A DNA stretch of 64,000 nucleotides from Malania oleifera (taxonomy: Eukaryota; Streptophyta; Magnoliopsida; Santalales; Ximeniaceae). Below the pieces are notes generated by a model, which was not told where the DNA came from, ran no database searches, and saw nothing but the letters and a program-made list of their open reading frames with translations. Location: assembly GCF_029873635.1 (NCBI RefSeq), contig NC_080418.1, positions 149,289,748 through 149,353,747 on the forward strand, written 5' to 3'. Shown here piece after piece: positions 7,654-51,059 of the stretch (position 1 is its first letter; each line of letters begins with the position of its first letter). Position numbers and translations under genes: made by a program.

Positions 7654-7926
7654 TTCTCTCCTTCTCTCCCATGTGTTCGATCCATTACAGCCCAGCGGTT
7701 CTCACTCACAGCAGCAAAGCCAAAATCTTATATATAGTATATTCTAGGAAGGCAAAACCCTATGCCTAGGACTTAGCATTGTTCAATTCTTTATCTATAA
7801 ATATGTACTGCAGTTAGTATTAACTTTGGCTATGCATGTCTCTGTCTTTTAGAAGTTTGTTTCTTAATGCCAGGGGAAGATGATGATGATGATGATGATG
7901 ATGATCGCACGAAGATGATGATGATC
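7654..7926. other. spacer with (GAT)n tract
   Basis: No gene was recognised. The stretch has a CT-rich leader-like segment, AT-rich sequence, and a (GAT)n microsatellite at about 7878-7925 that ends where the left terminal inverted repeat begins. Confidence 0.5.
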
Positions 7927-9330
7927 ATGTTGCATTTAATGTGTCAATCTTGCAATTTCTATAAAAATAAACAAACATTATAGAGATGAAATTTTAAATT
8001 AATATATAATAAAATGATACTTATTTATAGCTCTTACTGATAGTATATTACTCTACATCCTCTCTATCTGCATGTATAGATGCAATGTATTTTGCATACA
8101 CAAGAATAGAAATCCTGAGCATCCTTCCAAGTATTTAAAGCTGGACCTATAAAATAAATTTTTTTAAAAAAAATTTCTGATATTTTTTATCATTTCATCT
8201 TTCATCCCTCTTTCTTGTTAATAAACTAATAAAATTTTTAAAATAATTAACATCTATTCAAATTATCAAGAACAGTGTAGGTATAAGAGTACACCCTAAA
8301 ATTAAGAAAATTGAACACACATACATAAGTAAAATACAATTACTCTTAGTTTCTAACACGGAATTTGATTTTGTCTTCGACTTTGTCTAAATTTTGATAA
8401 AACATTATGTAAATTTTTATTATATTTTTTAAAATCTAAATACTAAAATTTATACTCTCAAATATTGTCTAAAAGTTCAAATCTACTTTAAATTTAATCA
8501 ATCCAGCAAAATGCTTAGCATAACATAGCATTTAATATTATAGAAGAACCAAAACAACAAGAAAGTATCACTCTATAAAAAATAATTTTGCATTATTTGG
8601 CATGCTATCTTTCTTCAACAGTAAATATCACATTTTCTTTTCTTTTGATTTAATTGGGAAGCATTAGTTTTCAACCACACAAATAATTTATTTCTTTTTC
8701 TACCAAATCTTTTCACATTTTACTTTTAATTTTGACTTAAAAGGCATATAAATTAAAACTACATAATCAAAGCATTGACGCGTTGCTCGTAAAACATAAT
8801 TAACATTATTAAATCTTAGAATATTTGAGTATTGAAACCCAATACGAGGAATAATTATTTAGGACCTTTTTTGTTCATTCATCGATAGGTTAGGAGCTTA
8901 TAGAAACTGATAATTCATCTCTCTTCTCGTGTTTCTTGAAAAATATTCTAATTATTTTAACTTGATGCTTATTTGTTAAAGGTTTCCTGTTCTAATCTTG
9001 AGAGGAACATAAAAATGTATAGGATGAGAGTTTATTATTATCTTCTATTTTGAAGTTCAACAAACTTACAATAATAAAATAAATAAAAATAACCTTTCTT
9101 ATATGCTCATTCCCTATCAATTTGAAAATGCTTAACATCACGGATCCATATGTCAAAAGAAGAGAGGAATATCGTATAGGGCCTCGTCTATAACCTTCTC
9201 TCTCCTCTCGCAATAAGGGTCTGTGATGTTTAGCAGCTCAAAATGTCAACTCCCGATTAGTAATGGTAAGAAATATTTTATAATTGGAAACTCAAAGCCT
9301 ATGATGGTCCTCTAATCATCACTATTTTTT
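7927..9330 (+). repeat. left long terminal inverted repeat
   Basis: This arm matches the reverse complement of 15160-16463 along nearly its whole length, for example the block around 8041-8130 against 16261-16350 and the block around 9110-9300 against 15170-15370. Matches are broken by many substitutions and by about 110 extra bases near 8985-9095. No gene was recognised in it. The divergence suggests an old element. Confidence 0.8.
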
Positions 9331-10096
9331 AATCTGAAGTTAATTTTTGCAACAATTATGTATTCTTCATCACTATTTGATACTATTATTAGCATATTAT
9401 TAATTTAAGGTTGCAAAAATTAACGTCAATAACTTCTTATTGACGTTAAAAATGAGAAAAAGTATGTCTAAAGAAGGAAAACCAAGAAAATGTGAATAGT
9501 ATAATTTGATATATTAAGAGGTGCTCACTCATGTGCACAAACACCCATATGACTATATGAGATATTGAAAATCTAGGTAGTTATTGGTATGTTTGGTAAA
9601 TTGAAACAATAAAAGCAAGTCGGTTTGATGGATGGTCAGTCGGCTTCCTTATAATTCTAAACACCGACCGCCGTTTCCCTCTCCTCTCATTTTCTTATTC
9701 ACTGGGTTTGGCCAAGTTAGCTTGAGTCGCTTGGTTAGAAATAGTTTTTTGCCATCAACTACCGGTCAAATCTAATCTGATTAAGTTGTTGCAAAAATTA
9801 ACAATAAAAGCAAGTCAGTATAATTGTTGCAAAAATTAATATCAATAGCTTCCCATTGACGTTAAAAATAGGAAAGAGTATGTCTAAAGAAGGAAGACTA
9901 AGCAAATGTGAATAGTATAATTTGATATTTGATTTCCCAACTCTCAAGGAATTAAAATAAAATTATTTTGAATTTAAATGGTTGGTTTAAAATCTTGAAC
10001 ATGTGATAACAAAATCTATAGAGTTATAATGTAAAATAATAATATTTTAGTATTATTTTAGAAGACCCTAATAAATTGTATTACCCTTTCAAATTA

Positions 10097-10138
<42 letters not shown>

Positions 10139-10219
10139 ACTAGTGAACAAAAATTTTAACAATGATTAATTTTATAAACTTTTTAAAGATTAATGGCTTA
10201 ATTATTTAAAAAAAAATTG

Positions 10220-10591
10220 TCAAATTAGTTTTGAATTAACAATAGTTTTGAAGCCACCACTCACAAGCTGTTTTCGTTTTTGGGCTTTCTCTTGCTCGGA
10301 GAGTGATTGGTCGGACTCGATCACCCGAATCGCTGCGATCAAGTGACCGTCGGAGGACTCGGCTTTGACACGGACCAACGCCAGATTGGGATTGGCGGGA
10401 AGGGAGTAGCAATCGGGGCACTCCCACCGAAGAGCGTCGGCTAGGGTCTGGGGACTAAGGAGGGAGAGGCATTGCACGTGCCATGGAGTGCCACATGTCT
10501 AGCACCCGAGGATATCATTAGCCGACAACTTCTCCTTGCAAATCATGCAAATGTTATCGCCGTCGCAGTGGAATTGTCTATCATGCGCCAT
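10220..10591 (-). pseudogene. VIM/ORTHRUS PHD-finger fragment, copy A
   Basis: VIM/ORTHRUS proteins are plant UHRF1-type ubiquitin ligases needed to keep CG methylation; they start with a PHD finger. The ATG is at 10591-10589, followed by MAHDRQ. The PHD cysteine/histidine order is visible: CMIC, C-x-TC, WHVQC, WECPDC. Next comes the LIAAIRVIESDQSLSEQEKA helix typical of the family after the PHD. The frame is stopped by a TAG at 10499-10501; copy C has CAG at that codon. Homology ends near 10262, so only the first part is present, with its upstream leader (to about 10650). Confidence 0.78.
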
Positions 10592-11094
10592 GAGAGCGAA
10601 ATATAAGCAGGGATGTTCAGGGATGGTGATTGGGAGTAATTAGCTAAGTAGGGTTTTATGGGAAATTCATAACTGCATGTGATGATATTATATACTATTG
10701 CGACAATAGTGATGAATGAAGCTCAATGAGGACGATAGGTGGAGATTTGAAAAACTATAATAAATACGATTTTTGAGAAGATGATATTGATTTTAACTTG
10801 CTCTATATTTGTGTGGTTGCTTGATTTTATTTTTATTTTTTTTTAATTTCCTTTCAATTTGGTAATCAAACTTGAAAATAGAAGGACCATTGATTCTTTG
10901 TATCCCATTAATTAGGTAATAATCAAACTGTAATAAATACGAGTTTGAGACGATGACATTGATTTAATGTTGCTCTATATTTGTGTGGTTGCTTGATTTA
11001 AACTAGGATTCATTTTATAATTCTTTTAAAGATTAATGGCATAATTAAAAAAAATGTTCTCATATTAGTTGTGAATTAAGAATAGTTTGGAAGC

Positions 11095-11417
11095 CACCAC
11101 TCACTAGTTGTTTTTGTTTCCGGGCCTTCTCTTGCGCGGAGAGTGACCAGTCGGGCTCAATCACGTGAATCGCTACGATCAGTCGCTGTTGGAGGACTCG
11201 ACTTCAACACAGACTGGCACCAAATTGGGATTGGCGGGAAGGGAGCAACAATCGGGGCACTCCCACCGAAGAGCATCGGCTAGTGTTTGGGGACAAAAGA
11301 GGTAGAGGCATTTCACGTGCCATGATGTGGCACATGTCCGGCATGCGAGGATATCATCAGCCAACGACTTCTCCTTGTAGATCATGTAAATGTCGTGAGT
11401 TGTCTATCATGCGCCAT
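11095..11417 (-). pseudogene. VIM/ORTHRUS PHD-finger fragment, copy B
   Basis: This is the second copy, a direct tandem duplicate of copy A. The ATG is at 11417-11415. A deletion of about 13 bases just after MAHDRQL shifts the frame. Beyond it the PHD reads ILACRTC, WHVKC and WECPDCCSL without the stop of copy A. The helix after the PHD is interrupted by another frame change near 11180. It has the same flanking leader and upstream sequence as copy A, so the whole block, not only the exon, was duplicated. Confidence 0.75.
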
Positions 11418-12580
11418 GGGAGCGAAGGATAAGCAGGGATGTTTGAGGATGGTGATGGTGGTGATTGGGAGTAATTAGCTAAGTAGTGTTTTATGGGAAG
11501 TTCATAACTGCATGTGATGATTATATATACTGTTGTGACAATGGTGATGAATGAAGATCGATGAGGAGGAGAGTTGGATATTTGGAAAATTGTAATAAAT
11601 ACAAGTTTTGAAAAGATGATATTGATTTTAAGTTGCTCAATATTTGTGTGGTTGCTTGATTTATTTTTCAATTTCCTTTCAATTTGGTAATCAAACTTGA
11701 AAATAAAAGGACCACTGATTTTGTTATCCCATTAATTAGGTAATAATCAAACTGTAATAAATATGAGTTTTGAGAAGATGACATTGATTTTAAGTAGCCC
11801 TATATTTGTGTGGTTGCTTGATTTTTTTAATTTCCTTTCAATTTGGTAATTATCAAACTTCTCATATATAATAAATACAAGTTTTTTCTTCGCAATTCAG
11901 TGCATGAGTTTTACAACAAAATTTTCCATCACGATAATAATTGAAAGGAAATTATTAATAATTTTCCTTTTTATTGACAAATAATTCAACGAATATTTTT
12001 TATTTGATTGGCAAATATTTCAAGAACACGGCACAATTAACTTATTTACATAGAAATGAAATTCCTTATATACTTGGGTGTTTATGTTTTGTTCTATGCT
12101 AAAATGCCACTGTAGAAATATATTTTGGTTATTATATTAGAAATTTGATTATTACCAAATTAAAAGAAAATTAAAAAAAAAAGTCAGGCAACCACACAAA
12201 TATAGAGCAACTTAAAATCAATGTCATCTTCTTAAAACTCATATTTATTACAGTTTGATTATTACCAAATTAATGGGATAAAAAAAAATCAGCGATCCTT
12301 TTATTTTCAAATTTGATTACCAAATTGAAAGGAAATTGAAAAAAAAAATCAAGCAACCACATAAATATTGAGCAACTTAAAATCAATATCATCTTTTTAA
12401 AACTTGTATTTATTATAGCTTTTCAAATCTCCACCATCGATCTTCATTCATCACCATTGTCGCAACAGTATATATAATCATCACATGCAGTTATGAATTT
12501 CCCATAAAACCCTACTTAGCTAATTACTCCCAATCACCACCATCACCATCCTTGAATATCCGTGCTTATCCTTCGCTCCC

Positions 12581-12905
12581 ATGGCGCATGATAGACAACT
12601 CCCCCACGACGGCAACGACATTTACATGATCTGCAAGGAGAATTCGTTGGCTGATGATATCCTTGCGTGCCAGACATGCCACTCCATGGCATGTGAAATG
12701 CCTCCCCCTCCTTCGTCCCCAAATGCTCTTTAGTGGGAGTGCCCCGACTTCCACTCCCTTCCCACCAATCCCAATCTGGTGTCCGTTTGTGTCGATGCTG
12801 AGTCCTCTGACAGCGACTGATTGCAGCGATTCGCGTGATCGAGTCCGACCGATCACTCTCCGCGCAAGAGAAGGCCCGAAAACGACAATAGCTTGTGAGT
12901 GGTAG
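12581..12905 (+). pseudogene. VIM/ORTHRUS PHD-finger fragment, copy C
   Basis: This is the third copy, inverted relative to A and B. ATG at 12581 begins MAHDRQLP, followed by ICKEN and DDILACQTC. The frame is then lost within the PHD: WHV-x-C is destroyed by a frameshift and a stop interrupts near 12731. The IRVIESD segment survives in another frame. CAG at 12671-12673 gives the unmutated state of the codon that is TAG in copy A. Upstream (12430-12580) is the same leader as in A and B. Confidence 0.75.
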
Positions 12906-13494
12906 CTTCCAAACTATTCTTAATTCAAAACTAATTTGAGAACTTTTTTTTTTAATTAAGCCATTAATCTTTAAAAAATTTACAAAACTAATCCTAGTTT
13001 AAATTTGTGTTCACTAGTAATTATATATATTTTCTAATTTGGGGCTAATCTAATTTTTTAGGGTTTGCTAAAGTAATACTAAAATACTATTATTTTACAC
13101 TATAACTCTAGATTTTTTTTTTATCACATGTTCAAGATTTTAAACAAGCTATTTAAATTTAAAATAATTTTATTTTAGTTCCTTGAGGGTTGGAACGACT
13201 GGAAATCAAATATCAAATTATACTATTCACATTTGCTTAGTTTTCCTTCTTTAGACATACTCTTTCCCATTTTTAACGTCATTGAGAAGCTATTGACGTT
13301 AATTTTTGTAAGAATTATACTTTTCCTCAAATTAATAATATACTAATAATAGTCTGAAATAGTGATGAAAAATACAATATTACTAATAGTATATTATTAA
13401 TTTGAGGAAAAGTATAATTGTTGCAAAAATTAACTTCACTAGCTTCTCATTGACGTCAAAAATGGGAAAGAGTATGTCTAAAGAAGGAAAACTA

Positions 13495-13897
13495 AGCAAA
13501 TGTGAATTGGCAAATATATTAAAAGAGTAACATGTAAGGAAATAAATAATGATTTTTATTACGTTTTCTATTAGATTGACTATTATGTGATTTAAAATAT
13601 TTAAACAATTTTCATTTCTTGACATAAATGACAAAATAGTCAAATACCCAACTATTAATTATGCATTAATGATATTTTAGTTTTTAAACTCATAAAGCAC
13701 AATTGATTTTTCTCTTCCACTACTTAATAATATGAGAGGAAAAACACAAGATTCCGCAATAAGTTGACATTAAAAAACAAATGTTATTAGTACTTTATAT
13801 ATATATATATATATTAAATATTTTATTTTATTTTACTTTTGTTTTCTCATTGAAAGTTAAAAATAAGAAAAAAGAGACAAATTCGCCAACTTCTTGG

Positions 13898-13941
<44 letters not shown>

Positions 13942-14064
13942 TAAAAATAATAATGATGATGACGTGGACGACGAGGATGATGATTAGTAATAATATCAGG
14001 CACAATTAGGAATGACCTTTTTGTTGTTTTTAACTTTTTATATATAGAAAAGATTAGTAGAGTG
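13495..14064. repeat. AT-rich spacer with (AAT)n and (GAT)n
   Basis: No gene was recognised. A TA tract lies at about 13798-13815, (AAT)n at about 13902-13950 and GAT/GAC-rich sequence to 13985. Reading frames here are translations of these microsatellites. Confidence 0.6.
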
Positions 14065-14417
14065 GCAAATACTGTGATCCTAAAAGAGAAGAAAAAAAAT
14101 AGATTGATGAAAGAAGATTGTGGTAGTGTAGGTGCCAGGGACGTGTTGCTATCATCTTTAAAATCCACCAGAATGTCCCCATTGCCCGATCCTCAACTCT
14201 CAATTCTACATCTTCACCCCTCTCTCTCTCTCTCCTCCCCCCCCCCCCCCCCCCCAAAAAGAAAATACTGTGATCCTAAAAGAGAAAAAAAAAAAAAAAT
14301 AGATTACTGAAAGAAGATTGTGGTAGTGTAGGTGCCAGGGACGTGTTGCTATCATCTTTAAAATCCACCAAAATGTCCCCATTTCCCGATCCTCAACTCT
14401 CAATTCTCCATCTTCAC

Positions 14418-14476
<59 letters not shown>

Positions 14477-14499
14477 CCCCCCCCCCCCCCCCAAAAAAA
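14065..14499. repeat. two-copy tandem duplication, ~200 bp
   Basis: The segment from about 14068 (AATACTGTGATCCTAAAAG) through a CT tract and a C-run to about 14262 is repeated from 14263 to 14499. The second copy has a longer CT tract (14420-14473) and another C-run. The reading frames over it come from the CT/C repeats. The duplication ends next to the small reading frame at 14500. Confidence 0.7.
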
Positions 14500-14646
14500 A
14501 TGAAGGCCAGAGTTCGGATTGTCGAAAGATCATTGTTCAAGGGATCAGATGATGGTTTCTATAGGCATTTGAAGCCGGGGGCACTCACCCAACTCAGGAA
14601 CTCCAAGATAATCGCCAAGTCTAAGAGATCCTTTGTGGGTCCTTAA
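14500..14646 (+). pseudogene. short captured coding fragment, unknown
   Basis: A 48-codon frame starts MKARVRIVERSL and contains SDDGFYRHLKPGAL and a basic tail KSKRS. It is more protein-like than its surroundings and resembles the N-terminus of small uncharacterised plant proteins, but I cannot name the family. After the TAA the same frame stays open to 14943. It lies inside the TIR element next to a repeat junction, so it is probably another captured gene start; function is unlikely to be retained. Confidence 0.4.
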
Positions 14647-15159
14647 TTCGATCTCTACCCAGTTGCTGATAGTGGCAGTGGTTGCGCCTTCTATGAACAA
14701 TGGGACTGCGGTGTACCCAATCGATGGGGTTCCTTGCTTTGCTTTGTAGACCAACCACCTGCAGTGTCCGCAGCAGAAGAAACTCGTTGCTGTTGCACCA
14801 GTTTTCACAGATTCTTGGTCCCGACCGGTCTCAGTGTTCAGTCAATAAAAAGCCAGGGATTGTGTAATGTAATCACAGTTTTAGTTCTTGTTAGGAACAA
14901 AAACGAATCTATCCAACATTCCTTTAGAAAATCAATCAAGTAAAAATGAATAAACTTTACTTAAAATTTGATACTCTAGAATTGAATGGATTGTGAATGG
15001 GATACAATAAAGAATTCATCATATAAAATTACAAAGACTGATTTCAGTTTATTTTATTTTATTTTTTCATACCAAACAAGTCATTAGATTGTAAGCAAGA
15101 GCTGTAATGTTAGACTAAGTGAATAAATGTTATGCAAGAATTTTCCTCATCATGCAATC

Positions 15160-16463
15160 GGGAAGATGATTAGAGGACCATAATAGGCTTTGAGTTTTCA
15201 ATTAAAAAACACTTCTTACCATTACTAATCAGGAGTTGACATTTTGAGCTGCTAAACATCATAGACCCACATTGTTAGAGGAGATAGAAGGATATAGACA
15301 AGGCCCTATTGGGTATTCCTCTCTCCTTTTGGCGTGTGAATCCGTGATGTTAAGCATTTTGAAATCGATAGGGAATGAACATATAGAAAAGGTTTTTCAA
15401 ATAAGAAACCTTTAACAAATAAGCATTAAGTTAAAATAATTAGAATATTTTCCAAAACACGAGAAGAGAGATGAATTGTTTGTTTCTATAAGCTCCTAAC
15501 CTATTGATGAATGAACAAATAAGGACCTAAATAATTATTCCTCGTATTGGGCCTCAATAGTCACATATTCTAAAATTTAGTAATATTAATTATGTTTTAC
15601 GAGCAATGTATCGATGCTTTGATTATGTAGTTTTAATTTATATGCCTTTTAAGTCAAAATTAAAAGTAAAATGTGAAGAGATTTGGTAGAAAAATAAATA
15701 ATTTATTTGTGTGGTTGAAAACTAATGCTTCCCAATTAAATCAAACAAAAAGAAAATATGATCTTTACTGTTGAAGAAACATAGCATGCCAAATAATGCA
15801 AAATTATTTTTTAAAGAGTGATACTTATTTTCTTGTTGTTTTGTTCTTCTATAATATTAAATGTTATGTTATGTTAATCATTTTTCTGGATTGATTAAAT
15901 TGAAAGTAGATTTAAACTTTTGGATAATATTTGGGAGTATAAATTTTAGTATTTTGATTTTTAAAAATATAATAAAAGTTTACATAATGTTTTATCAAAA
16001 TTTAGACAAAACCGGATTCAAAATGAAATTCCATGTCAAAAACTAAGAGCTATTGTATTTGACTTATGTTATGTGTGTTCAATTTTCTTAATTTTAGTGT
16101 GTATTCTTACACCTACATTGTTCTTGATAATTTGAATAGATTTTAATAATTTTAAAGTTTTTATTAGTTTATTAACAAGAAAGGGGTTGAAAGATGAAAT
16201 GATAAAAAGTATCAGAAAGAAATTTTTTTAATTTTCTTTTATAGGGTCAAGCTTTAAATACTCTGAAGGATGCTCAGGATTTCTATCCCATTGTGTATAC
16301 AAAATACATTCCATCTATACATGCAGATAGAGAGGATGCAAAGTAATACGTTATCCGTAAGAGCTCTAAATGAGTATCATTTTGTTATGTATTTAAGATT
16401 TCATCTTTATAATATTTGTTTATTTTTATAGAAATTGCAAGATTGGCACATTAAATGTAACAT
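15160..16463 (-). repeat. right long terminal inverted repeat
   Basis: Reverse-complement partner of 7927-9330. It includes the paired blocks GATGATTAGAGGACCAT (from 15163) and, at the outer end, AAATGTAACAT (to 16463). It lacks the roughly 110 bases found in the left arm near 8985-9095. The open frame at 15861-16046 is AT-rich and not convincing. Confidence 0.8.
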
Positions 16464-16610
16464 TAGCACGTGGAAAAGTTGTTCTTTGTTTCCAAACACA
16501 GTCTCAAAGTTATGTTTTTTAAATTATTTGCGTAAAATATAATTTTAGACATTAGCACGTGGAAAAGTTATTCTTTGTTTCTTAATTTAATGGCAGAATC
16601 TTGAGGTCAA

Positions 16611-17640: not shown

Positions 17641-19600
17641 TGAAGACTTATTTTGAAGACTTTTCAGTGTGAGAAAGACTCAAGTGGAAATGCCAAAACA
17701 AGTCTGAGTTCAAGACCCATGTGGGCCCCGACACGGTCCTGTGGGCCCTACAAGAAATGGGCCTCCCTTTGACTTTTGTTTTATATTTAATTTAATCTTA
17801 CAATACAACTTGCTTGCATGTGCTTGTCTTTAGTAAGTAGTGTGTTAGTAGGTTGTGCTTAGTATTTAATGTCTTGTAAGTTTGAGTGTTTGTGTGAGTA
17901 TTTATTATATCCACTAAGTTGGTGTCTTTATTATTTGTGTCTCCCACGTTTGTATGGAATTGTTAGTTGTTTAATGTATTTGTCCCCCATGCTAGCTAAG
18001 CTTATTAATGCTTTGTCCCCCTCCGCCCCTCCCTCATGCTAGCTATATATATCCCTTCATTGTAAGAACAACAGTTAGGTTTGAATAATGAAATATTGAA
18101 AGGAAATTCCTTTGCTAAAACTTGTTAGTTTTGTCCAATCATTTTGATTGTGCAGTGTCAAGCTACGCGTTCTCTCTGGAGATCAGGTAGTGAGAGACTA
18201 CTATCTATCCAGCACCTTCATATCCCCACATAGCCACCTTCACTCCATTGCATTGTTGCATTTGTTGGTATTTCAAAGCTTGTACGAAGAACCTAAGGTG
18301 TGGACTACTTGTGTTGAAAGGCATCAAAACCACCCAAGCAACACCCACACGACCACATTACAGCATACACCCCTCAACTTTCTATCCTCCACTCCACTGC
18401 TGCATTAGTCTTGGTAATTTGAAGCTTGATCCAAGGACCTACGGTGTGATCTAACTGCGTGTTGGGCAATGCCTAGCATCCATTGAAACTCTTGGCAAAT
18501 TAGTATCTGTTTGAATCTTTACTAAATCATGTTAAAGCCCTATCTTCAATTTCTGAAATTTCATATTTGATAAGCCTTTGCATCCATAAACTTCAATATT
18601 TCAGCTTGTTAGCTTGAAATCAATTGTGGAATATTGATATGCTAAACTTAGAATTTTATTCTTGAAACACAGAAATGACATTCTTGCTGCATCTAACTTA
18701 ATACCTTTGTGAAAGAACCAATTGGGACTAAATTTTGGAAAGCATCATACACCCTTTCAAAATTTTCCAACATGTGAAATGTCCTCTGATTTATTGTGTT
18801 TATGTTTGTTAATCTATTTCTTAATTTAAAGTGTTTCGAATGTATGTGCTTGCGAGAGTTGAACCGTAGGACATAGGTCAATCCATCCTGTCCTACATCA
18901 ACCCTCCACATGCAAGAATTTATTGAGGCATCATTTGGAGTTCAGAAAAATTTAAGAAATTCAAAAAAAAAAAAAAAAAAACAAAGAAATTAAAATTTTT
19001 TTTTTCTTATTAGATTATTTGAGAAAATAAAAAAGAAAAGAAAATATATAATAAAAAGATACATTATTTTATTTTTTGTGCCTTTAATTTTTCCAAATCT
19101 TAAAGGGGGAAGTTATTGATAAATCAAAAATACCGCGCTAGCATTCCATAAATAAATATATATACATTTTTTTCTTACAAGTTTACCTACTCTTCCCTCT
19201 TTTTTGTATTTTTAATTGTAAGTGAATAAAATGAAAAGTCAAAAGATAAAATTATATATTTATAAAATATGTGCAGGCACAGATCAATATCCCCCTATTC
19301 AACATTCACGTCATACTTGAACTGATTGGTATGGATACTTTAATTTATCTCAGCAATAATATAAGATCTGTGCTTGACATATTCATAATGTTGTATATAA
19401 AAATTGAGAGACATGAACTATAACTTCGACGAAACAAAAAACTATCATTGTTCATGAACTATAATTGCAATTTTGGAAGAAGTAAAATTATTACTTAAAT
19501 TCAAGACAGCATTGCTACAATTCCAGTAATTTGGGATGGCAATGCACATAATGGCTTTAGAAATTTTGCTTTAAAAAAGATCTTACTCAAAAGAAAGAAA
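17641..19600. other. unassigned, possible degraded LTR
   Basis: The part at about 17641-18480 has features of an LTR or leader: CTATATATATCCC (18040-18053), a T-rich region, and a run of short direct motifs (GCTAGCT). No terminal ends or duplication could be fixed. 18561-19600 is AT-rich with a poly-A run at 18962-18981. No coding region was recognised. Confidence 0.3.
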
Positions 19601-20420
19601 AGATTGAACCTGAGCGTTGGGGGAGCAGGAAAGGGAAGAACCGAGGCGGCGGCGACTAACACCATCAATCTTTGGCTTGAACTGAATTTGAATTTTTGAA
19701 TTTGGTTTCTAAGCCAATCAATCGATCAGCCAAATCAATCAATCCACTCTCTCAGAATCTCTATCAGATTTGAATGTTCTGCTGCGCTGCGCGCATCAGG
19801 AAGCGTTTGTCGAGCTCTAGATCGATCCTCTTCTGTCGATCTCTCCCTCTTAAAGACAGGTGACTGCACGCTATTTCCCTCATTGCTTCTTTGCTCGTTC
19901 TTTTCATAATCGCGTGATCTATCCAAATCTATTGTTCAGTTTTCCCCAGAATTCTAATGTGGTTCTCTTCCATTTGTTGAATTTCCATTTTATGATCATA
20001 TGTTCCAAATCAATGCCATACGATGTTCAGGGATCGTCGGTTAGCAATTTCAAGGCGCTTTTCTCGTGTTTTCTATAACAACTGGATTGATTTTAGCTCT
20101 TCAAAGTGCCAATCAGTGGGAAGAAAAGATAGAAGGAAATGAATATCCTCATCTTCCATGCCCTGCTCTTGCTGAAGTTTGCCCATCCACATTAATGTGA
20201 TGTCCCCAGCAAAACGTAATTAATGCATTTGACGCCGTCCTTAATGCATTTTCCAAAGCCTTACTTTTTATAGAATTGCATAAGCATTGAAATAATGTAC
20301 GCGTTTGCCAAAAGTACAATGTTTTCTATGCTGTGAAATGAGCGTGTACTTTAGTTGATCTCAGATCTCATCGTTCCTTTGGTTGGATTTTTCTCTTCCC
20401 ATTTCGCACATGTACAATAC
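19601..20420. other. possible host-gene leader region
   Basis: This segment is less AT-rich than its surroundings. It looks like a plant 5' leader: CT-rich sequence to 19858, then AAAGACAG followed by GTGACTGC at about 19859, which could be a splice donor on the plus strand. GC-rich GGCGGCGGCG at 19645-19656 could equally belong to a minus-strand leader. No protein family was recognised on either strand. Low confidence. Confidence 0.25.
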
Positions 20421-20890
20421 GATGCACTCGCACTGGCATTTGGTTAGTTCATTAGTCAACTGAATTAATCAAAAAATTTCAGTTAGAAAATTATATTAAT
20501 TAAATACAAGTGAGCTTTCATATTACCCCAAATCAAAATTGATCGAACCAAATATTGGTTAAATCAGTTAACCAATTTAATATTTTAATATGTATAAAAT
20601 ATAATCGATATAAATTATATATATAAAATATAAAAAATTTTAGTATATATAAAATATATAAAATGTTTTAATATAATATATATATATATATAATTATTTA
20701 TTATTAATCTACTCTATTCAATTAACTGAATTAACCGAACTCAAAAATCGAATCGACAACCAAAAACCAAAATTCGGCGAAGATGAAAACTAAACTGAAT
20801 CAAATAAATTTTTAATCAAATCTAACTGACTGAATTCACTCGGTTAATTCAATTAATTCGATTTTAAGCAAATTATGTTGTGATCATCCA
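20421..20890. other. AT-rich repeat with GGTTAATTC motifs
   Basis: Dispersed GGTTAA, TTAACCG and AATTAACTGAATT motifs on both strands flank a (TA)-rich core (20590-20700). Such sequences are common dispersed repeats in plants. The two halves are only weakly inverted, so I do not call a MITE. It ends at the target duplication of the gypsy element (TGTGC, 20891-20895). Confidence 0.35.
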
Positions 20891-20895
20891 TGTGC

Positions 20896-49057: not shown

Positions 49058-50857
49058 TCACTCCGTCATCAACGCGGCTGCCCCGAGACCGCCACCGTCG
49101 TCAAATCCATCCTCATCCTCCCCGGAACCAACGGTTGGCTCACTGCCGAAGCCAATTTTGACCCAGAATTCTTCTGTTGCCGGTGGGAGGTGGTTGTCCG
49201 GGAGGCTCGAGGGCTGGGGCCTGGCGCCATGGCGAGCTACGTCACCGCCCTCATCCTCTCCGTCTTCTGCATCAAACGCTTCGAAATCAAACTGAATAGC
49301 CTCAGGGCTGGACCCGTCGAAGTCAAGGGCACCGCTATCGCTCTCCGTGAAACCTATGGGTCCCCCGCTTTGGTCGCCATCAAGACGCTCATCAGAAAAA
49401 TCACCAGGTTCGTCGCCATAGCAATGATGACCACCTTGGATAGAATCAGCTGGCATATCAGGAGCAGGACCAGTCTCATCCCTGTAATAAATCTGAACCT
49501 CACCCGCTTCTTCTCCTGTAGCTTGTTCTGCGGAATCAGTGAATCTCAACCACATCTTCTTCTTACAGTGTTGCATGAGAAGGTACAACAGTTTAATGAC
49601 CGCAAACGCCACGCAAGTCATCATCGGAAAAACATAGTATCTCTTGCGTTCCAACGTGAGCACGTAAGGCACAGACACAACCAGACACATCACCACCGGT
49701 CCTGGCATCCTCATGTGCACCCGAAACGTCCGATTCAGATCCGGCGACTTCCATCTCAAGCATAGAAACAACGTTAACTCCAACAGTGCTGTGAAACTTC
49801 CAAAGAAGCTCACCAATGCCACCAGGTACTCGAAGTCAACAAACAGAACCGTGGTGGCCAATCCGGTGGATACCAAAATCGCTACCCACGGAGTATGAAA
49901 TCGTATGGAATGGAACCCAATGCAATGGGGCAAACACCCCATTTCTGTCATGCGCACGAGCTGGTAAGAGCAGTTGGTTATCCCGTCGTCATATTCTTGA
50001 AGAGTTGACAAAGCGGCTGCAATTTGGAACATGTCTTGTAACCATTTTCCAGCTATCATTTCAGCGGCGATGACGAAGAACCCATCTTTCCACTCGTCTT
50101 GGTTCACGGAAAGAGCACCGGCTACAGCTACAACAGGGATTGCATGAGTAAAACAGGTGAGCGTCACGGAGATATTGAAGTGTGCTTTGAAGAGCAAAGA
50201 TTTCTCTTTGAGTTTGTCCGTTAGCATTTCTCTGGCGGAAGGATTGTCAAATTTCCAGAAACTGAACTTCCAGAGAAGAGTGGTTAAGGGGAGATTCCAG
50301 TTTTTTTTCACCCCTTCCTGCCCAGTGCTAAAGCATCTTTGGATACTGATTTTGGGGTTGGCTATTAGGGACATGACAAGGAAGAGGAAGAGGGGGAGGA
50401 GGAAGAGGCATGCGGAGGTGTAGCGCCCTCGGCGGAGGAGTCCGATGTAGTTGAGGAAGGAGAGGGAGAGGGTTAAGAGGAGGAGGACGAGAGCGCGGGG
50501 CAGGCCGCGGTAGACTTTTTCAAGGTACTCGTGGCAGAGGACGGTGCTGATAGCGAGGTCGACGACGCGGCTGAGGTATATGACGGAACGGATGAGGAAG
50601 CCCCAGAAGGGGCTTCGAAAGGCGGGGGCGATGGAGGAGAGCTCGGCAGTGATGTGGGTGCAGGGGACGCTAACAATGAAAGGGAAGATGAGAGTGCCGA
50701 GGAGGGCAAAGAGGGGGCCGACCGCCCCCACTGCTGGCTCCACCCCGAAGGGAGCACCGCCGATTTCCATGCAGCAGAGGAAGACAACAGTGGGAAGGGT
50801 GAGGGCAAGCTGCTTAGTATCCTCCTCGTTACTCATGGTTGGTTGTTTCGGGTGCAA
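49058..50857 (-). CDS. divergent polyamine/amino-acid transporter
   Basis: A single open frame of 599 codons, related to plant PUT/LAT transporters of the APC superfamily (closest in wording to the At3g13620 type), which import polyamines across membranes. Visible matches: GGAPFGVEPAVGA (family GGPFG) at residues 33-45, LSFLNYIGL (132-140), AGALSVNQDEWKDGFF and AAEMIAGKWL (246-273), YQLVRMTEMGCLP (298-310), FHTPWVAILVSTG (320-332). About ten hydrophobic segments lie between residues 18 and 430. Odd points: the usual PGNGG loop after helix 2 is shortened, and residues 441-599 form a long acidic, Gly-rich tail absent from typical 470-490 residue members. The second ATG (50836) is the likelier start because a TATA box lies only about 25 bases from the first. 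No introns are seen. It may be live or a young pseudogene. Confidence 0.8.
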   Translation of the reverse strand: MHPKQPTMSNEEDTKQLALTLPTVVFLCCMEIGGAPFGVEPAVGAVGPLFALLGTLIFPFIVSVPCTHITAELSSIAPAFRSPFWGFLIRSVIYLSRVVDLAISTVLCHEYLEKVYRGLPRALVLLLLTLSLSFLNYIGLLRRGRYTSACLFLLPLFLFLVMSLIANPKISIQRCFSTGQEGVKKNWNLPLTTLLWKFSFWKFDNPSAREMLTDKLKEKSLLFKAHFNISVTLTCFTHAIPVVAVAGALSVNQDEWKDGFFVIAAEMIAGKWLQDMFQIAAALSTLQEYDDGITNCSYQLVRMTEMGCLPHCIGFHSIRFHTPWVAILVSTGLATTVLFVDFEYLVALVSFFGSFTALLELTLFLCLRWKSPDLNRTFRVHMRMPGPVVMCLVVSVPYVLTLERKRYYVFPMMTCVAFAVIKLLYLLMQHCKKKMWLRFTDSAEQATGEEAGEVQIYYRDETGPAPDMPADSIQGGHHCYGDEPGDFSDERLDGDQSGGPIGFTESDSGALDFDGSSPEAIQFDFEAFDAEDGEDEGGDVARHGARPQPSSLPDNHLPPATEEFWVKIGFGSEPTVGSGEDEDGFDDGGGLGAAALMTE

Positions 50858-50881
50858 GTATGGGGTGGCTACAAGGAGGTT

Positions 50882-50889
50882 CTTATATA
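50882..50889 (-). promoter_or_regulatory. TATA box of transporter gene
   Basis: Minus-strand TATATAAG, 25 bases before the first ATG and 46 before the second. Transcription about 30 bases downstream would start near 50855, favouring translation from 50836. Confidence 0.5.
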
Positions 50890-51059
50890 TGGACTTTCAT
50901 GCACCAGTGCGCAATCTTGTGCCCTGCCACCTGCGCAAACCTCAGAGGAAGCATGTGTGAACATTCAGACCTTCAAAAGTGCAAGCTGCTCCTGTGCCAC
51001 CAAGTCGGATCCTCTGCCTCGCAAAGGGAAAATTATATAGACATTTCCTGACCCTAACA

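Follow-up and report, generated by a model that had tools for sequence, protein, structure and literature searches.

An inverted repeat of decayed VIM/ORTHRUS gene fragments in the genome of Malania oleifera, a possible source of small interfering RNAs

Introduction

Does an inverted repeat built from pieces of a gene of CG-methylation maintenance act on the silencing machinery of its own host, or does it decay under silencing? This question is raised by a locus of Malania oleifera (genome of 1.494 Gb in 510 contigs, assembly GCF_029873635.1), where three pieces of a VIM/ORTHRUS-type gene lie close together within a window of 64,000 nucleotides (nt), i.e., the whole stretch of DNA analysed here (C2:149289748-149353747; contig C2 is NC_080418.1). 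An earlier reading based on the letters alone (the sequence-only reading) had placed the three copies inside a transposon and proposed that hairpin RNA from them could lower the host's silencing machinery. We give an even chance to the explanation that the locus is an old, diverged VIM pseudogene inverted repeat, which served as a source of small interfering RNAs (siRNAs) and is now largely self-silenced; siRNA production that is past or weak appears plausible. As a kind, the VIM inverted repeat is already known from Arabidopsis Cvi-0, and the Malania locus would represent it in another plant lineage.

Structure and identity of the three copies

Self-comparison of the window distinguished three related units: A (9817-10999) and B (10996-11868), in tandem on the minus strand, and C (12133-13321), inverted on the plus strand. 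BLASTN alignments of the whole units revealed 83.3% identity in 857 aligned columns for A and B, 82.5% in 1203 columns for A and C, and 85.9% in 894 columns for B and C, each with an E-value of 0.0, and the resemblance is therefore not due to chance. Units B and C constitute a head-to-head inverted repeat of approximately 870 bp, separated by a non-palindromic loop of 264 nt (11869-12132). The sequence ATGGCGCATGATAG is present in every one of the three copies.

Unit A is composed of a short repeat (R), a flank (F), the VIM piece and an upstream segment (U); unit C contains U, the VIM piece, F and R in inverted orientation, and unit B a truncated flank, the VIM piece and U. The VIM piece of A (10251-10759, minus strand; first base of the ATG at 10591) comprises the leader, the start codon and the PHD part, and keeps its frame for 113 codons up to LVSGG, with a single in-frame stop. 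The corresponding piece of B (11091-11589, minus strand; ATG at 11417) is frameshifted by a 13-bp deletion, and that of C (12414-12908, plus strand; ATG at 12581) carries frameshifts and stops. From the start codon of B to that of C the distance is 1163 bp, and much of that stretch is palindromic too. None of the copies encodes an intact PHD-RING-SRA-RING protein, as the pieces end at about codon 113 and are interrupted by stops or frameshifts. The non-coding flank following the VIM piece is common to A and C up to position 13321, and in B it extends for only about 95 bp. The first copy of R is located at 9410-9512 (plus strand), and at the edge of unit C R forms a compact inverted repeat (13225-13507) with 127-nt arms that are 94% complementary.

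The VIM/ORTHRUS identity of these pieces, proposed from the letters alone, was borne out by several searches. In a search of solved structures, copy A, its single stop replaced by X, matched ORTHRUS 2 (PDB 7duf) with an E-value of 8.6e-18, the next chain having 4e-5; it also passed the Pfam cut-off for PHD (29.8 bits vs 24) and, marginally, that for Prok-RING_1 (31 vs 29.1). Copy C alone gave weaker results (7duf, E-value 2.3e-7; Pfam PHD, 13.9 bits, under the cut-off). The protein search yielded one match among 7 candidates, P0001, corresponding to a VIM N-terminus, with 54% identity across the entire query, and P0001 in turn recovered A (E-value 6e-33), B (2.5e-9) and C (1.8e-6) from the genome. 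The three-copy structure and the VIM kinship are near certain.

Self-alignment and BLASTN placed the three copies and their orientations where the sequence-only reading had put them, and three of its details need adjustment. It had spoken of a PHD exon: leader, ATG and the PHD part are indeed present, but not the whole exon, given that the pieces end at about codon 113 and the exon 1 frame of the related gene on contig C4 continues to ERPVT. Its homology deep into the flanks holds for A and C, but not for B. Finally, the copies do lie within its extent of 9800-13490, but the outer inverted repeat goes further (7927-16463).

Probable origin from the VIM lineage of contig C4

Match counts of the genome searches given here are lower bounds. 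The protein search with P0001 resulted in at least eight matches: C7:111365299, C13:73599639, C4:39553607 (C4a), C4:39663483 (C4b), copies A, B and C, and a weak one on C11. Those on C7, C13 and C4a are free of stops, and C4b contains two TAG codons. A DNA query made up of the leader and coding region of C gave at least seven matches: A, B and C themselves, a pair on C4 at 82%, a single one on C13 at 73%, and a stretch of C5 that corresponds to the flank alone. As judged by tblastn with the C13 reading frames, C4a appears open in the segments taken as exons, its stops being located in presumed introns; in C4b, stops interrupt the first two exons and later parts. We use the domain names RING and SRA for these exons.

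The VIM pieces of A, B and C share 83.8, 85.2 and 85.7% identity with C4a, respectively, and 84.9% (A/B), 86.7% (A/C) and 88.5% (B/C) with one another. In the tree, A joins the pair (B, C) beside the pair (C4a, C4b); the split has a Shimodaira-Hasegawa-like approximate likelihood ratio (SH-aLRT) support of 87.4 and an ultrafast bootstrap of 82, and the C4 pair has 99. Tree and identities together make it likely, though not certain, that A, B and C derive by a single capture from the lineage of the apparently intact VIM gene on C4. Homology to C4a begins about 160-170 bases 5' of the ATG and stops just past VSGG, within exon 1. Beyond VSGG the copies continue into flank F, which occurs without VIM sequence at C5:40398146-40398432 (F) and C2:149226370-149226826 (F plus R), and spans, together with R, positions 12906-13401 (plus strand) at unit C. 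For segment U, situated upstream of the leader, the matches listed comprise only A, B and C and a 65-bp match on C1.

From the observed structure and kinship we infer a single capture and the following order of events. One piece of 0.5 kb, covering the leader and the PHD-encoding portion of exon 1 from a C4-lineage VIM gene, would have been copied into a low-copy repeat of C2; a tandem duplication (A and B) and an inversion (C) would then have produced a head-to-head pseudogene repeat within a larger palindrome.

C4a and its duplicate pseudogene C4b lie 110 kb apart and differ at 8 of 571 sites in the interval 850-1420 downstream of the ATG, most of which is exon 2, compared with 53 of 504 in the leader and early exon 1. 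This uneven divergence suggests gene conversion or late constraint.

Decay of the copies and the C-to-T footprint

Differences between the copies are distributed over codon positions 1, 2 and 3 without bias (18/18/18 for A-B, 20/14/17 for A-C and 15/10/19 for B-C), and those between C4a and C13 are distributed 18/15/40 (p 5e-4). Coding constraint is thus not apparent among the copies but is apparent in the C4a-C13 divergence. In each pair of copies, identity is lowest in the coding part (83.6-85.9% vs 84.0-94.3% elsewhere; cells of up to 5 columns excluded). The leader is somewhat more alike than the coding part (A/C p 0.043, B/C p 0.023, A/B p 0.23); we rejected this as a sign of function, the other non-coding parts being more alike as well.

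C-to-T changes were scored on either strand, with C4a, C4b and C13 serving as a proxy for the ancestor. They were found at 11/46 (A), 10/44 (B) and 11/45 (C) CHG sites and at 10/56, 12/54 and 11/54 CG sites, respectively, vs 9/163, 7/157 and 8/153 CHH sites. The excess over CHH is significant for CHG (p 7e-4, 6e-4 and 5e-4) and for CG (p 0.010, 3e-4 and 0.002), and is the expected trace of long CG and CHG methylation of the locus, as far as substitutions can record it. Pseudogene C4b has the footprint too (CHG p 8e-5, CG p 0.001) and C4a has it at CG alone (p 0.010; CHG p 0.12), the proxy ancestor biasing the rates of both C4a and C4b low.

This pattern is also what would be left by inert debris, i.e., a captured and duplicated fragment methylated together with its surroundings, which never gave a hairpin transcript and has no effect on VIM. 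We regard this as a serious possibility, somewhat short of an even chance. All three copies have stops or frameshifts and lack codon-position bias among themselves, the same footprint is borne by C4b, retroelement reading frames are present in the window, and each copy has only 1-10 perfect 21-mers to C4a. What speaks against inert debris is that long inverted repeats of genes give siRNAs in plant cases (PAI, and VIM in Cvi-0, PMC13213937; for GmIRCHS of soybean, double-stranded RNA (dsRNA), PMC13051633).

Hairpin capacity and match to the intact VIM genes

Computed folding of 10996-13004 (B, loop and C) gave -1290.0 kcal/mol for the plus strand and -1294.5 kcal/mol for the minus strand, and three mononucleotide shuffles of the plus strand gave -441.7, -448.5 and -435.7 kcal/mol. 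Pairs spanning more than 300 nt numbered 780 (plus) and 784 (minus) vs 86-112 in the shuffles, and the longest unbroken helix, G-U pairs allowed, has 76 bp and is located in the VIM leader. By alignment and folding alike, B and C are a long inverted repeat capable of forming dsRNA, and the hairpin capacity claimed by the sequence-only reading is upheld by the folding of 10996-13004.

Matches of the copies to each VIM locus were determined for its leader and exon 1. The longest perfect matches of A are 27 nt to C4a and 23 nt to C4b, those of B 21 and 32 nt, and those of C 23 and 24 nt, respectively. With C13, A has a perfect match of 20 nt and B and C have none of 18 nt or more; with the VIM gene on C7, none of the copies has a perfect match of that length. 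Perfect 21-mers to C4a number 10/520 in A, 1/500 in B and 7/485 in C, and those within 2 mismatches 155/520, 146/500 and 154/485, respectively. For C13 there are 0 perfect 21-mers, and 45 (A), 25 (B) and 23 (C) within 2 mismatches; for C7, no 21-mer of any copy is perfect or within 2 mismatches. These counts leave C4 alone, and weakly, as a realistic target among the three intact-looking VIM genes.

An active hairpin lowering the C4 VIM gene in trans would be consistent with the perfect matches to C4a and C4b, with the share of 21-mers within 2 mismatches of C4a, and with the absence of stops from C4a where it aligns to C13 exons; moreover, the VIM1 cleavage tag and the siRNAs in Cvi likewise fall in exon 1 (PMC13213937), and mismatched hairpins may evade self-silencing (PMC9263138). 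We nevertheless consider it unlikely. The VIM genes on C13 and C7 have 0 perfect 21-mers, so CG maintenance would be buffered. A comparison of C-to-T changes inside and outside the hairpin-homologous part of C4b and C4a did not support methylation in trans: the CHG sites of C4b gave 10/47 inside vs 17/171 outside (p 0.046), and the other five tests gave p >=0.377, all six uncorrected. Methylation of C4b bounded by homology to the hairpin found no support in the same comparison. Divergence is also seen in the remainder of exon 1, which adjoins this part and lies outside the hairpin (9/135 sites vs 53/504). The earlier claim that the locus lowers the host silencing machinery is thus unsupported, with arms of 86% identity, few perfect 21-mers to C4 and none to C13 or C7, and a locus that has itself been methylated according to its footprint.

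Comparison with known silencing loci

If the locus was a source of siRNAs, read-through transcription from either side would yield a hairpin with approximately 780 computed long-range pairs, which Dicer-like enzymes would cut to siRNAs. These would methylate their own locus via RNA-directed DNA methylation, leaving it largely self-silenced and decaying, and leaked siRNAs of 21-22 nt could at most reach the leader and first exon of the C4 VIM gene. Provided that it is transcribed, the locus would act in the manner of the Cvi-0 VIM4-VIM2 repeat and soybean GmIRCHS, as an old and diverged representative.

The closest precedent is the head-to-head VIM4-VIM2 repeat of Arabidopsis Cvi-0, for which siRNAs from exon 1, cleavage of VIM1 in exon 1, lower VIM1 expression with unchanged VIM1 methylation, and a modest gain of non-CG methylation in exon 1 of VIM2, VIM3 and VIM4 are described (PMC13213937). 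For the class of mechanism put forward by the sequence-only reading, this Arabidopsis repeat, with its siRNAs and reduced VIM1, is a close precedent (PMC13213937). Both loci have VIM sequence in head-to-head orientation, exon 1 and leader in the stem, a short loop, and a palindrome-prone, repeat-rich setting (PMC13213937). However, the Cvi-0 repeat consists of whole genes of 99.86% identity with about 96 bp between the ATGs, and its siRNAs and lowered VIM1 have been demonstrated (PMC13213937). The Malania locus, known from sequence, has only exon-1 fragments with arms of about 86% (85.9%) identity and 1163 bp between the ATGs of B and C. As an instance of near-identical head-to-head VIM genes it thus fits in orientation but not in identity. 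Among the full-text matches listed (titles and starts of abstracts, with most subscription papers outside), PMC13213937 was the only paper on a VIM inverted repeat.

GmIRCHS is likewise an inverted repeat of a pseudogene fragment (about 1.1 kb) with a short spacer and a candidate silencing trigger for an intact family; it differs in being tail-to-tail rather than head-to-head, in adjoining a DnaJ-gene promoter and in that dsRNA was detected (PMC13051633). Rice miR820, a fold-back within CACTA elements that resembles part of OsDRM2, provides another case of a DNA-methylation gene fragment carried by repeat DNA as a fold-back (PMC3459959). It is, however, an miRNA with five CACTA copies and demonstrated target cleavage, directed at the de novo pathway (PMC3459959), whereas we describe one locus, an unproven element and a long hairpin, related to the maintenance pathway. 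In maize elements, captured fragments are siRNA sources against their donors (Muyle 2021, as described in PMC13317346), and hairpin transgenes methylate themselves (PMC9263138).

Several points weigh against a self-silenced siRNA source of single origin. Support for the grouping of A, B and C is modest. Their common ancestry means that the C-to-T tests are not three independent ones, and the ancestral proxy is itself built from C4a, C4b and C13. The footprint is typical of any silenced repeat and is also found in C4b, which is not known to form a hairpin, so that it is no proof of an siRNA origin. In Cvi, siRNAs of 20-22 nt exceed those of 24 nt and non-CG methylation of the repeat is modest (PMC13213937). 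Mismatches between the arms prevent self-methylation of hairpins (PMC9263138), and arms of 86% identity may therefore not self-silence.

A far-reaching version, which we judge quite improbable, would make the locus an independent and older case of VIM-directed RNA interference, in which siRNAs made in the past, or still made in some tissue, reduce the activity of the C4 VIM gene and contributed to the silencing of C4b, head-to-head exon-1 repeats recur and tune CG methylation, and the palindrome is possibly mobile. Should siRNAs be made, the locus would be the second natural VIM inverted repeat after that of Cvi-0, built independently from exon-1 fragments, and it would permit a direct test of whether CG methylation across the genome is reset time and again by structural variants of VIM genes. 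If none are made, it would be a well-resolved case of captured pieces of a silencing gene decaying under the silencing they might have disturbed.

The surrounding palindrome and the transposon question

The VIM units are embedded in a larger palindrome. Its left outer arm (7927-9320, plus strand; further copies at C2:149113099 and C2:149125384) matches the right outer arm (15165-16463, minus strand; segments 15165-15397 and 15405-16463, by self-alignment) inversely at 88-90%. A genome search with the left arm gave at least 21 matches, 13 of merely 49-112 bp; the eight larger ones are in the window arms (3), in a palindrome at C2:149113099-149126257 (2), on C12 (2) and on C7 (1). This sister palindrome (C2b), 186 kb away, has arms of about 5 kb that are 95.5% alike, of which the left matches window positions 14352-16511 and the right 14352-15942. 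Neither the DNA query from the leader and coding region of C nor direct comparison found a VIM match in it.

A second gene-like fragment, MKARVRIVERSLFKGSDDGFYRHLKPGAL..., is common to the two palindromes; it lies at 14499-14892 (plus strand) in the window and also at C2:149114503-149115174, C2:149124722-149125383 and C4:7460355-7460750. The match to the last of these is sharply bounded (86%), and the source of the fragment may be at C4:7.46 Mb. Its protein search found none at an E-value of 0.01 among 3 candidates, and Pfam none.

A transposon carrying the VIM hairpin as a selected counter-defence, comparable to miR820 in rice CACTA elements and its target OsDRM2 (PMC3459959), would accord with the two gene-derived fragments in one palindrome and with a 13-bp direct repeat beyond the arms (7856-7868 and 16574-16586, plus strand), a length reached by 0 of 3000 Markov simulations. 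This repeat is a candidate target-site duplication, non-diagnostic in that it was one of three end pairs tried at several lengths, the others giving nothing and a chance-level 8-mer; its right copy lies partly inside a local 33-bp arm duplicate (16460-16492 and 16549-16581, 97% identical). The target-site duplications of Pack-MULEs measure 9-11 bp. We find such a transposon very improbable indeed. By eye, the sequences that adjoin the 13-bp repeats on the inner side are not inverted copies of each other. C2b and C7 still share about 250 bp after the window sequence has diverged from both, so the right end in the window is not the end of the family, and comparison with C2b and C7 revealed no common ends. 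C2b has no VIM match, the matches listed for U are confined to the three copies and the 65-bp stretch on C1, and the copies bear no sign of coding selection. No transposase was noticed by eye in open reading frames (ORFs) of at least 150 aa in the window and at least 90 aa in C2b, no aimed search having been made.

Long inverted arms around gene fragments and extra internal repeats are features common to the locus and to Pack-MULEs or MULEs (Mutator-like elements) with extra terminal inverted repeats; unlike Pack-MULEs, the locus has no accepted target-site duplication and no common ends with sister copies (PMC3310237). Its outer arms stop short of the extreme ends. The locus is a gene-capturing palindromic repeat and possibly a decayed non-autonomous element; the transposon of the sequence-only reading is unsupported.

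C2b also contains window positions 19392-20895 beyond its arm, 2.6 kb off without its copia element vs 2.9 kb in the window, a resemblance that points to segmental duplication. A single copia insertion common to the window and C2b was rejected: the long terminal repeats in C2b are 94.8% alike and the copia bodies only 84.6 and 86.2%, so separate insertions are likelier. Nor does the left arm run on beyond the copia in parallel with the right arm: the 19,747 bases upstream contain no such match above 150 bp and 75% identity. Another palindrome, with arms of about 1.75 kb that are 88.8% identical, is situated nearby at C2:149133517-149137669.

Other features of the window

The long reading frames of the window are largely retroelement pieces (two confirmed by Pfam, the others judged by eye), which, together with the plant-type VIM genes of the genome, mark the window as part of a nuclear chromosome of a plant. 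A tandem duplicate (14067-14234 and 14263-14434, plus strand) was distinguished at 14067-14434 by BLASTN self-alignment. In the window, the Rfam gathering scan returned 0 matches and ARAGORN, run with the bacterial code, predicted 0 genes; the search of a plasmid collection in distant mode gave no match. An ORF of 612 codons at 49058-50896 (minus strand) scores 40 bits against PF13520 (cut-off 27), belongs to the amino-acid permease family and is apparently an intact host gene.

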